Part shown: positions 23,246-48,671 of the stretch, piece by piece
How positions within the stretch are numbered: the stretch's first letter is position 1
How the letters are laid out: the number at the start of each line of letters is the position of its first letter
Origin: Actinomycetota bacterium
GTDB taxonomy: Bacteria; Actinomycetota; Thermoleophilia; Gaiellales; Gaiellaceae
Assembly: GCA_005884005.1 (NCBI GenBank)
Contig: VAWI01000011.1
Location: forward strand, 1 to 64,000
Reading direction: 5' to 3'
Length of the DNA stretch: 64,000 nucleotides
Program-made: the position numbers and the translations under genes
The notes under the pieces: generated by a model
What the model was told of the DNA's origin: nothing
Databases searched by the model: none
The model's input: the letters and a program-made list of their open reading frames with translations, nothing else

Positions 23246-23318
23246 GGGCCGTTAGCTCAGTTGGTAGAGCAGGGGACTCTTAATCCCAAGGTCGAAGGTT
23301 CGAATCCTTCACGGCCCA
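23246..23318 (+). tRNA. tRNA-Lys (anticodon CTT)
   Basis: The acceptor arms GGGCCGT and ACGGCCC pair, the D arm contains TAGCTCAGTTGGTAGAGCA, and the T arm contains GGTTCGAATCC. The anticodon loop CTCTTAA gives anticodon CTT (Lys, AAG codons). The discriminator base is A and CCA is not encoded. A strong hairpin with a CTTTTG tail follows. Confidence 0.97.
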
Positions 23319-45486: not shown

Positions 45487-46046
45487 TGCTCGACGACCGC
45501 GTGCGCGCTGTGCTCGAGCGGCTCGAGTCAGAGGAGCAGCGCCCGCCCGGAGTCGCGGTCGAGCCGACAACCGGCCGCTTTTTGTTCTCAGTCTGTGCGC
45601 CGCAGGCGGACTGCGAGGTACTCGAGATCGGGGGCGGCCACGGCTACTCGACGATTTGGCTCGGGGCGGCGGTTCGCCATCTCGGTGGGCGGGTGTTGTC
45701 GCTGGAGCGCGACCACGAGTGCATTGCCGACTGGCGGCGCAACATCGCCGACGCCGGGCTCGAGGAGACAGCCGAGCTCGTGGAAGGCGACGCGCGCGAG
45801 ACCCTGCCGATGATCGACGACGTCTTCGACGTGGTCTTCCTCGACGCAGCGAACAATCATTACGAGGAGCTCTTCCGTCTGGCCCGCGGGAAGCTCGAGC
45901 CGGGCGCAATCGTGATCGCAGACGACGTCACGTTGCACGCGGACACGTTGCGGGCCTATGCGGAGGCGCGGCAGGCCGATGCGACGCTGCTCAGCACGAC
46001 CGTTCCGCTGGACCGTGGCCTCGAGCTGTCCGTCGTGCTCCGCTGA
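45486..46046 (+). CDS. Class I SAM-dependent O-methyltransferase
   Basis: A 186-residue methyltransferase. Motif I is VLEIGGGHGYSTIWL. LSLERDHECIADW provides the acidic ribose-binding residue, and DVVFLDAANNHYEELF is the third motif typical of CCoAMT-like O-methyltransferases with a divalent metal. The start is GTG at 45486, at the very end of the foldback element; the frame is open upstream only through the element. The substrate is unknown. It may be coexpressed with the Rieske ferredoxin. Confidence 0.8.
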   Translation: MLDDRVRAVLERLESEEQRPPGVAVEPTTGRFLFSVCAPQADCEVLEIGGGHGYSTIWLGAAVRHLGGRVLSLERDHECIADWRRNIADAGLEETAELVEGDARETLPMIDDVFDVVFLDAANNHYEELFRLARGKLEPGAIVIADDVTLHADTLRAYAEARQADATLLSTTVPLDRGLELSVVLR

Positions 46047-46091
46047 GCTTGCTACCTGCGGCGGGTGGCGACCACGCACCCGGCTACCTGC

Positions 46092-46144
46092 GGCGTCGCT
46101 TGCGATGCTGCTAAGAGGCCGCGCGGCTTTGCCGGGCGGCCGCT
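46092..46144 (-). repeat. Dispersed palindromic repeat, family A copy 4
   Basis: On the minus strand: AGCGGCCGCCCGGCAAAGCC, then GCGCGGCCTCTTA and GCATCGCAAGCGACGCC. It is inverted relative to the nearly identical copy at 46452. The two enclose the structured RNA. Confidence 0.75.
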
Positions 46145-46186
46145 CACCCCGGTCGTTGATCAGGACAGGGTGGCGGCCCACGCACC

Positions 46187-46195
46187 TGCTACTTT
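46187..46195 (+). promoter_or_regulatory. Extended -10-like box before the structured RNA
   Basis: TGCTACTTT at 46187-46195 matches an extended -10 (TG, one base, TANNNT). It would start transcription near 46202. No convincing -35 is present. Confidence 0.4.
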
Positions 46196-46201
46196 TCGCC
46201 T

Positions 46202-46421
46202 ACCGCGGAAAGGAGGTGGTCCGGTAGTGAAATCTTCAAGTACGGGCAGTGGAGGTACCAGCGGGTAGAGGCGTGTCCCCCGGACCTACGGGGAATCGCC
46301 TAGCCAGCGTAGGGGACTCGCGCTTCGCGCCGCCGTTGCAATAACGGCAGGAAGCGCCTCTACTACTTCAACGCTGGTAACCGGATCAAGGGGCCGCTTG
46401 TAGCGGCCCCTTGTCTTTTTT
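46202..46421 (+). ncRNA. Probable structured noncoding RNA
   Basis: Between two family-A repeats lies a 220-bp transcript candidate with a clear intrinsic terminator. It folds into nested helices. P1 is TACCAGCG (46256-46263) with CGCTGGTA (46372-46379); P2 is GTAGAGGCG (46265-46273) with CGCCTCTAC (46355-46363). Inside are CCTACG/CGTAGG (46285-46290, 46308-46313), a GCGC-TTC-GCGC hairpin and GCCGTT/AACGGC. The 5' part has AAAGGAGGTGGTCC, complementary to the 16S 3' tail with one G-U pair. It is not a tRNA, RNase P RNA, tmRNA or SRP RNA by their signature motifs. A raiA-type or novel RNA is possible. Confidence 0.7.
46388..46421 (+). terminator. Intrinsic terminator of the structured RNA
   Basis: AAGGGGCCGCT and AGCGGCCCCTT form an 11-bp stem with a TGT loop, followed by GTCTTTTTT. 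This is the clearest intrinsic terminator in the window. Confidence 0.92.
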
Positions 46422-46451
46422 CATTACGCGGTCGACCGGACGCTCGGGATT

Positions 46452-46505
46452 AGCGGCCGCCCGGCAAAGCCGCGCGGCCTCTTAAGCGGCATCGCAAGCG
46501 ATGCC
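46452..46505 (+). repeat. Dispersed palindromic repeat, family A copy 5
   Basis: AGCGGCCGCCCGGCAAAGCC, then GCGCGGCCTCTTAAGC and GGCATCGCAAGCGATGCC (perfect palindrome). Inverted relative to copy 4 and about 90% identical to it. Confidence 0.8.
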
Positions 46506-46523
46506 GCGGCGGCCCGTGCCTTT

Positions 46524-48671
46524 TCAGGCCGGCGCACGCTCGATCTGGATTCGCGGCAGCCAGCCAAGCCAGCTCGGCAGGTACCAGTTCCAGCGGCCGA
46601 GCAGGCTCATGGCCGCAGGGAGGATCACCGAGCGGATAACCGTTGCGTCGAGCAGGAGCGCGATTGCGACACCGAAGCCCATCTGCTGGAACTGGACGAG
46701 ATCGCCCTTCGCGAAGCCCGCGAAGACCGCGACGATGATCAGCGCCGCACCCGTGATGATCCTGGCGGTCGAGCCCACGCCCCATCTGACGGAGGCCGTC
46801 GTATCGCCCGTCTCGTCGTAGCGCTCCTTGATCCGGCTGAGCAGAAAGACCTGGTAGTCCATCGAGAGGCCGAAGAGGACGGAGAACAGGAACAGCGGCA
46901 CCCAGGCTTCGATCGCGTCCACCTGCTGGAAGCCGAAGATGCCGTTCCCGACGCCCTTTTCGAAGACGAGCACGATCAGCCCGTAGGCTGCCCCGACCGA
47001 GAGCAGGTTGAGGACGATCGACGTCGCTGCCACGACGATGGAGCGAAAAGCCACGGTCAGGAGCACCAGTGTGAAGCCCAGCACGAAGATGAAGACGTAG
47101 GGCGTCGGCTTTGTGACGGAGTCGGCATAGTCGACGTTCTCGGCAGTCCTGCCGCCGACGAGCACGCGCGCGCCGGTGCTCCCGAAGAGATCCGGGATCA
47201 CGGTTGAGCGAAGGTTGCGGACAGCGGTCAGAGCCTGATCGCCTGCGTCGTCGCCTCGAATCGGGACGTCGAGCGCCGCGACCTGTCCGCCGGGCGCAAA
47301 ACGAGCTTTGCCGTCACCGAACTCCGGGTCTCCGGCCAGGCGGTCTCGCAGCCGGTTCAGTGCCGAGCGGACTTGCGGATCGGACGCGTGGTCGGCGACG
47401 ACGATGCGCACGGGGTCTGCGGTCGCGTCGGGGAAGTTCTTCTGCAGCGCGAGATATCCCTGCTTGGAGATGAAACGGTCCGGCAGCGTGCTGACGCCGT
47501 TCGTGCCGATCTTGAGCGAGAAGATGGGAATTGCCGCCGCGATCAGGAGGCCGCAGGCGAGTACGAGACTCAGCGTGGGGCGGCTCAACACGTGCCCGAC
47601 GACTGCGTTCCAGAAACGCCCCTCGGCCGAGCCGCCGAAGAGCGGAATCCGCAGCGAGTTGACGCGGTCACCGAGGAGGCCGAGCAGCGCGGGCAGCAGT
47701 GTCAGGGCTGCGGCGAGGGAGGTGACGCCGACCAGGATCGCTCCCGCGGCAAGGCTGCGCATGATCGTGTTCGGCACGATCAGCATGCCGAGCATTGCGA
47801 TCACAAATGCGGTGCCGCTGAAGAGGACCGCGCGGCTGGCCGTTGCGCCGGCCGCCTCGATCGCGTCTGGCGGCTTCCGGCCGCCGGTGCGCTCCTCGCG
47901 ATAGCGCGAGATGACAAACAGCGAGTAGTCGATCCCGAGCGCGAGGCCCATGCCGGTGAGCATGTTCACGACGAAGATCGACAGCTCCCAGATCTGAGAG
48001 ACGACCGCGATGAGCCCGAGGCCACCGACGATCGCCAGGATCGCGAGTAGCAACGGCACCAGGCCTGCGACGACCGAGCCGAACACGAGCACGAGGATGA
48101 TCAGCGCTGCGGGGAGTCCGAACTCGAGCTCACCGCTCTTGAGGTCGTGCTGGGAGAGCTCGTCGAAGTCGTTGTCGCGAACGTTGTTGCCGGTGATTGC
48201 CACCTCGAAGCCCGAGCTGCCGTTTTCCCGCTCCACCAGCTGATTTACCGGCTTGATGTCGCTCGTGTCGAAGACGTTGATCGGGATGATCAGGGCGTGC
48301 TTGTCTCGTGAGACGAGCGACGGATCGTGGGTCTGGTAGTAGAGCTGCGCGTCGTGGACGTTCCCGGTCGCCTGCCCCTTCCGCACGAGTTGGCTCACGA
48401 AGTTGCGAAAAGCCGGCTCGTCGACGTTGTAGCGGCTGGAGCGCACGAGCACGATGTCGCTGAAGTTCAGGCGCGGGTTATAAGGGAAGGCGCTGAACTC
48501 GATCCGTTCGGCCTGCCGGAACTCGGGGTTGCCCGCAGCGCCGCCGTTCGAGGTCAGGTTGCCGGGCAGGAGCAGCCCGATTGCCGCAAGGGCGAGCACG
48601 AGCGCCGCGATCCAGGCGCCGATCGTGCGCCAGGGATGGCGGCTGCACGCCCTCGCCAGACGCTCGGTCAC
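46524..48671 (-). CDS. MMPL-family RND transporter
   Basis: A 715-residue MMPL transporter. It has TM1 (about 14-34), a periplasmic loop, TM block (about 180-330) with LALGIDYSLFVISRYREE, a second TM (365-385), a second loop, and TM block (525-690) with FGLSMDYQVFLLSRIKERY. The Asp-Tyr pairs for proton relay are intact. It starts with GTG at 48671. Substrate unknown. It is the first of two MMPL genes on this strand in the region; a third is at 12190 on the other strand. Confidence 0.9.
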   Translation of the reverse strand: MTERLARACSRHPWRTIGAWIAALVLALAAIGLLLPGNLTSNGGAAGNPEFRQAERIEFSAFPYNPRLNFSDIVLVRSSRYNVDEPAFRNFVSQLVRKGQATGNVHDAQLYYQTHDPSLVSRDKHALIIPINVFDTSDIKPVNQLVERENGSSGFEVAITGNNVRDNDFDELSQHDLKSGELEFGLPAALIILVLVFGSVVAGLVPLLLAILAIVGGLGLIAVVSQIWELSIFVVNMLTGMGLALGIDYSLFVISRYREERTGGRKPPDAIEAAGATASRAVLFSGTAFVIAMLGMLIVPNTIMRSLAAGAILVGVTSLAAALTLLPALLGLLGDRVNSLRIPLFGGSAEGRFWNAVVGHVLSRPTLSLVLACGLLIAAAIPIFSLKIGTNGVSTLPDRFISKQGYLALQKNFPDATADPVRIVVADHASDPQVRSALNRLRDRLAGDPEFGDGKARFAPGGQVAALDVPIRGDDAGDQALTAVRNLRSTVIPDLFGSTGARVLVGGRTAENVDYADSVTKPTPYVFIFVLGFTLVLLTVAFRSIVVAATSIVLNLLSVGAAYGLIVLVFEKGVGNGIFGFQQVDAIEAWVPLFLFSVLFGLSMDYQVFLLSRIKERYDETGDTTASVRWGVGSTARIITGAALIIVAVFAGFAKGDLVQFQQMGFGVAIALLLDATVIRSVILPAAMSLLGRWNWYLPSWLGWLPRIQIERAPA

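Follow-up and report, generated by a model that had tools for sequence, protein, structure and literature searches.

Within the 64,000-nt stretch of Gaiellaceae DNA analysed here (the window; contig VAWI01000011.1), positions 46202-46421 of the (+) strand hold a predicted stand-alone RNA gene of ~220 nt, which is very probably a divergent homologue of Ms_IGR-5 (RF02471) in the Gaiellaceae (class Thermoleophilia). Ms_IGR-5 is reportedly an actinobacterial small RNA first described from Mycobacterium smegmatis. Our comparison gives this conserved RNA, present also in mycobacteria and streptomycetes, a concrete and testable anatomy: helices P0 and P1 are added, a tiny and probably translated reading frame is recognised inside the fold, and the start-codon bias of the family points to translation initiation. 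The best overall explanation, which we judge on balance probable if only just, is a stand-alone Ms_IGR-5-type RNA gene with two mutually exclusive states, folded and ribosome-loaded.

Gene boundaries, flanks and distribution

The RNA gene occupies a gap of 477 bp between a methyltransferase gene (PF13578) ending at 46046 and an MMPL gene (PF03176) ending at 46524, in keeping with the gene-free gap reported in a preliminary description of this DNA; the MMPL gene lies downstream of the RNA on the opposite strand and is convergent with it. The same description had proposed a structured RNA with a textbook intrinsic terminator, and we confirmed the latter at 46387-46421, where a 12-bp stem (46387-46413) is followed by TCTTTTTT. 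Terminators were found in most full-length homologues. For the comparison of start regions and reading frames we used a phylum-wide set of 143 distinct sequences, drawn from many families and picked for carrying the Shine-Dalgarno block together with a stop near helix P2; since its members are related and preselected for both features, counts from this set are not independent. Most of them carry TANNNT at -15 to -12 from P0 (75 at -13 and 30 at -14), compared to 1-4 matches in each control window, and by its position relative to P0 the corresponding -10 promoter box in the window is TACTTT at 46190-46195. An A at the position of A46202, directly 5' of P0, is present in 98% of homologues. A46202 is thus the probable +1, and the 3' end of the RNA likely falls within the T-tract. 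Because terminator, promoter box and homologues agree, the RNA was assigned to the (+) strand, as were all features below; the limits of the whole gene (46202-46421) are predicted transcript ends based on the conserved A, the terminator and sequence conservation.

Inverted repeats enclosing the locus (46090-46156 and 46440-46507) exist as first described, but they are not part of the RNA element. They represent a dispersed REP-like repeat of ~65 nt, two copies of which lie here in opposite orientation; the genome carries at least 50 copies, some of them clustered, and in the nearest relative (L002) none adjoins the RNA. Neighbouring genes vary by family (epimerase, gyrA, iron-dependent repressor, solute-binding protein and SLAC1). 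No neighbour is shared by all the families examined, and the RNA therefore probably functions independently rather than as the leader of an adjacent gene.

A DNA search covering 61 related genomes, from Gaiellaceae and allies in the class Thermoleophilia, recovered the element in 50, including 27 of the 28 good-quality genomes, nearly always as a single copy. Among named records, those bearing this sequence signature came mainly from Gaiellaceae, from Thermoleophilia or from unclassified Actinomycetota MAGs. Two relatives depart from the common form: in one (L018, 1493-1650; G022 C79) P3 runs directly into the terminator without the 3' strands of P2 and P1, and in the other (L034; G005 C2) the Shine-Dalgarno sequence and the 5' half of the frame are missing from an otherwise conserved RNA. 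Each is either a decayed copy or a misassembly.

Fold and covariation

The 220-nt sequence folds at -107.3 kcal/mol, compared to -85.7 +/- 4.8 kcal/mol for shuffled sequences (z = -4.5). P1 (46256-46263 with 46372-46379) and P2 (46265-46273 with 46355-46363) have exactly the coordinates first proposed, and P1 extends outward through GGT at 46254-46256 pairing with ACC at 46380-46382, with a bulged A between. Its full strands are therefore 46254-46263, within the reading frame, and 46372-46382 (CGCTGGT-A-ACC), and the 5' strand of P2 includes the stop codon of the frame. Across 21 aligned relatives, standard pairs filled 94.7% of pair cells versus 36-47% when partners were slid, and two-sided changes occurred at 17 of the 39 pairs, five of them in P1 and three in P2. 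The preliminary description had staked the RNA on covariation of P1 and P2 in homologues; both covary, which favours the RNA.

The 21-sequence alignment also places P3 (GTCCCC at 46275-46280 with GGGGAC at 46312-46317), the mini-hairpin P4 (CC-UAC-GG, 46285-46291), which shows little variation, and a variable hairpin b (46332-46348) whose stem covaries. The P5 hairpin (CGC-CUAGCCA-GCG, 46297-46309), with its near-invariant loop, and variable hairpin a (46319-46329) come from the relatives' alignment; both variable hairpins are missing from short-form relatives. A possible attenuator-like switch, in which the 3' strand of P1 would pair with core GCCAGCG, was rejected as unsupported, the pairing being lost in short-form relatives.

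P0 was identified by a phylum-wide strand-pair test and joins CCGC at 46203-46206 with GTGG at 46249-46252, within the reading frame. Over 49 distinct strand pairs from the phylum, 185 of 196 outer pairs were formed, compared to 112 +/- 7.6 with shuffled strands, and many strand combinations are fully compensatory (CACG/CGTG, CCAG/CTGG, CAGG/CCTG, CCAA/TTGG and CGAC/GTCG). Because P0 links the four bases 5' of the Shine-Dalgarno sequence with the codons immediately 5' of AGGT, it encloses the ribosome-binding site. In phylum members P1 starts with GGT, typically paired with ACC downstream of a linker that is often AATCCA. In members from outside the window's order, a pairing is possible between GGACN of the frame and the loop of a 3' hairpin (41 of 69, versus 27 +/- 3.5 when shuffled).

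Ribosome-binding site and short reading frame

Directly after the 5' strand of P0 comes an extended Shine-Dalgarno sequence, GGAAAGGAGGTGGTCC (46207-46222), with 16-nt pairing, G-U allowed, to the 3' tail of 16S rRNA. Sixteen contiguous pairs, again counting G-U, are possible in 141 of the 143 homologues, a set preselected for this block. The tail used was the canonical actinobacterial one; its core was seen in reverse complements of 16S genes, and its last bases we assume from general knowledge. The 15-mer Shine-Dalgarno pattern has its sole exact match in this genome at the RNA locus. Matches to GAAAGGAGGTGATCC followed by AGCCGC were left out as reverse complements of 16S genes. In three members from other families of the phylum (L121, L171 and L199), an 11-12 nt perfect complement of the Shine-Dalgarno sequence, GGACCACCTCC, lies inside the P2 domain and could serve there as a sequestering element; as a general family trait an internal anti-Shine-Dalgarno was rejected, complements of 11-12 nt being found in these three only.

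Four bases past the Shine-Dalgarno sequence, a GTG opens a reading frame of 13 codons (46227-46268, VKSSSTGSGGTSG) that ends with TAG at 46266-46268, within P2; the in-frame start and the stop at P2 recur throughout the family, where the frame has 10-15 codons. Its length changes by multiples of three (first 50 loci). In the 143-sequence set the Shine-Dalgarno-to-stop distance modulo 3 is distributed 62/45/36, and the start shifts along with the frame. An in-frame NTG stands at the correct spacing in 126 of these preselected sequences, whereas the two alternative frames give 1 and 39, and the remaining 17 carry ATT, ATC, ATA or ACG where NTG is expected. Counted separately, the in-frame codon 2-4 nt past the Shine-Dalgarno sequence is initiator-like in 119 of 143, with 14, 30, 12 and 11 in control windows.

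Start codons in the set were TTG (66), GTG (32), CTG (16), ATG (11), ATT (9), ATC (6), ATA (2) and ACG (1), so that ATG is rare (8%). Set against the bacterial norm, in which ATG is the usual start and AUC, AUU and AUA are rare (PMC9094748), this usage is strongly skewed towards weak starts. The skew does not extend to every group: the streptomycete-type members (L163-L168 and L172), which fell outside the pattern used to collect the set, mostly start with ATG and have a Shine-Dalgarno sequence ending in GGUUC, weakened by wobble pairs. The combination looks like compensation between start and Shine-Dalgarno strength.

Taken together with the literature, translation of the short frame is likely, and we hold this with good confidence. 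Ms_IGR-5 is among the small RNAs catalogued as transcribed in S. lividans (PMC8079986) and S. avermitilis (PMC8780764), and IGR-5 of M. smegmatis was detected as ncMSMEG15794c (PMC10454040). Ribo-seq footprints were recorded on MS_IGR-5 homologues of M. abscessus and M. smegmatis, with that study's own warning that co-sedimenting ribonucleoproteins can yield an equal footprint signal (PMC4974804). In M. smegmatis, ATG, GTG, TTG and ATT all initiate given a Shine-Dalgarno sequence (PMC4633059). Translation of the frame is plausible because of these mycobacterial footprints and of near-cognate initiation in M. smegmatis. The element had first been called noncoding; the structured RNA stands, but in view of a conserved short frame with a maximal Shine-Dalgarno sequence family-wide the label is doubtful. 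In the literature searched, which had the family's founding paper outside it, we found no description of a frame inside Ms_IGR-5.

Relationship to Ms_IGR-5

The element had also been considered undescribed, with raiA as a possible match. An Rfam scan of the locus returned no family at threshold and none credible at E <= 10; raiA, ROOL, GOLLD and OLE gave no match at that E-value, and neither did tmRNA, RNase P, SRP or 6S RNA models, in agreement with the reported absence of tRNA, RNase P, tmRNA and SRP RNA at this position. A tRNA gene is found elsewhere in the window, at 23246-23318 (+) (73.9 bits). Matches to CC2171, chrB-b, P17 and similar families were discarded: their scores were low and traced to the Shine-Dalgarno block, to the terminator or to the flanking repeats. 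RF02471 itself had no match at the locus, either at gathering (45 bits) or at E <= 10, and its best score in the whole genome was 10.2 bits, away from the locus.

The link to Ms_IGR-5 came instead from reciprocal matches. A covariance model built from Gaiellales sequences, the window's family, alone (R1) recovered accepted Ms_IGR-5 loci, with position and strand both correct (L168, E = 6e-10; L157, 2.5e-8; L139, 4.5e-8). In relatives of other classes RF02471 scored above threshold (L139, 165 bits; L134, 81; L125, 57; L150, 50). Both models coincide at many loci of the window's class (for example G172 C92, with E-values of 8.3e-9 and 3.6e-9, G114 and G069). Most RF02471 matches in this class fall below threshold, and they include a few members of the window's own family (G036 C111, E = 0.007). 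The start region aligned poorly in the alignment for a second, intermediate covariance model.

Because R1 and RF02471 find each other's loci, the element is best read not as undescribed but as an Ms_IGR-5 homologue that the Rfam model leaves out: judged strictly by score it is no member, by descent we count it as one. As the window's family and most of its class escape the model, the Ms_IGR-5 family is much wider than Rfam shows. One genome of the window's order (G046) also holds a second Ms_IGR-5 of actinomycete type (L119, 1527-1724 of C114; 102 bits), probably on a foreign contig, the genome being 5% contaminated.

Proposed mechanism and alternatives

The 3' half of the codons forms the 3' strand of P0 and the 5' strands of P1 and P2, which makes an elongating ribosome and the fold mutually exclusive, and the RNA probably could not be folded and translated simultaneously. 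The cell may use this exclusivity as a switch. The long Shine-Dalgarno sequence would capture a 30S subunit, and the weak start codon would slow initiation on the captured RNA. Upon successful initiation the ribosome would open P0, P1 and the base of P2 and halt at P2, while after failed initiation the RNA would remain in its closed form, such that initiation capacity would set whether the RNA is folded or ribosome-loaded. One of the two states would then act in trans. We put forward this mechanism as a whole, a ribosome-gated RNA that is either folded or translated, tentatively and as somewhat short of probable.

If the product mattered, the RNA could instead be the mRNA of a micropeptide of ~13 residues whose structured 3' part controls stability or translation. 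The reading frame is universal in the family, an M-S/T-D start recurs, and the synonymous share of single-base codon differences is 38%, compared to 21% expected. However, the peptides differ across the phylum (VKSSSTGSGGTSG, LSDLWTCEVAAS and LSDTSGGGSS), differences in codons 2-6 are even over codon positions (517/484/480), and it is the helices instead that determine the codons in the 3' half. Peptide-level selection was not adopted, its signal being weak and mixed, and the micropeptide reading appears unlikely. Since the peptide is unconserved phylum-wide but the frame is present, being translated or loaded with a ribosome is probably more important than the peptide itself.

Loading could also be an end in itself, with the RNA as a 30S decoy that uses its full-tail Shine-Dalgarno sequence and poor start to trap or store small subunits, elongation being nearly irrelevant. 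The 16-nt complementarity to the 16S tail and the weak start codons agree with such a role, but a conserved open frame with an in-frame stop would be superfluous, and the P0-P2 fold and single gene copy point beyond a sponge. We consider the decoy rather improbable, and equally so a conventional antisense RNA acting in trans, in which the CUAGCCA loop or the purine-rich block would pair with target mRNAs and the frame would be incidental. That reading fits a gene standing alone with its own terminator, the near-invariant P5 loop and the cataloguing of Ms_IGR-5 as an sRNA in Rfam; it leaves unexplained why all 143 sequences, chosen though they were for Shine-Dalgarno block and stop, have in-frame initiator codons at the correct spacing, which is unexpected for a by-product. 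Finally, a ribosome-mediated attenuator of the downstream gene, suggested by a leader-peptide-like frame with helices and a terminator downstream, is highly implausible, as the convergent MMPL gene leaves no co-directional gene immediately downstream and the neighbours examined vary between families.

Returning to the ribosome-gated RNA, a broader and more speculative extension, which we regard as a minority possibility, is that Ms_IGR-5-type RNAs form a phylum-wide sensor of translation initiation, combining the strongest Shine-Dalgarno sequence with a weak or near-cognate start. If this were true, IF3, free 30S subunits, drugs and starvation would decide between the folded and the ribosome-loaded state.

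Comparison with known systems

One known system with a resemblance is infC of E. coli, which encodes IF3 and is autoregulated through an AUU start: a strong ribosome-binding site is combined with a start disfavoured by IF3. The likeness is in working principle only, with no homology, and the window RNA differs in carrying a tiny frame in a stand-alone RNA without a protein product of the infC type. The raiA motif, a structured RNA of similar size in Gram-positives, resembles the element in size and structuredness, its Rfam model remaining unmatched at E <= 10. CC2171 (RF01867), a small RNA of Caulobacter, has a 5' block, GAAAGGAGGUGAUCC, that is likewise complementary to the 16S tail; its score of 18 bits in the window, against a threshold of 75, comes mainly from this block (46207-46222), and the other sequence and structure are unrelated. 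The 5' end of an unrelated alphaproteobacterial RNA is thus also complementary to the full 16S tail, a possible parallel.

The closest comparison is with Ms_IGR-5 itself. Its members' long 3' hairpin, with a GUCC loop pairing with GGACN of the frame, is missing in the window, where the terminator directly follows the 3' strand of P1, and P3-P5 and the variable hairpins differ. The Rfam consensus of RF02471 leaves the 3' strand of P1 unpaired and lacks the P0 and P1 helices. The Ms_IGR-5 architecture, with P0 round the Shine-Dalgarno sequence, P1 as GGT/ACC and the stop codon in P2, is nonetheless present in the window, and both share the order of parts: a promoter box 5' of P0, a long Shine-Dalgarno sequence, a short frame, P1, and an AAUCCA-like linker ahead of the 3' strand of P1.
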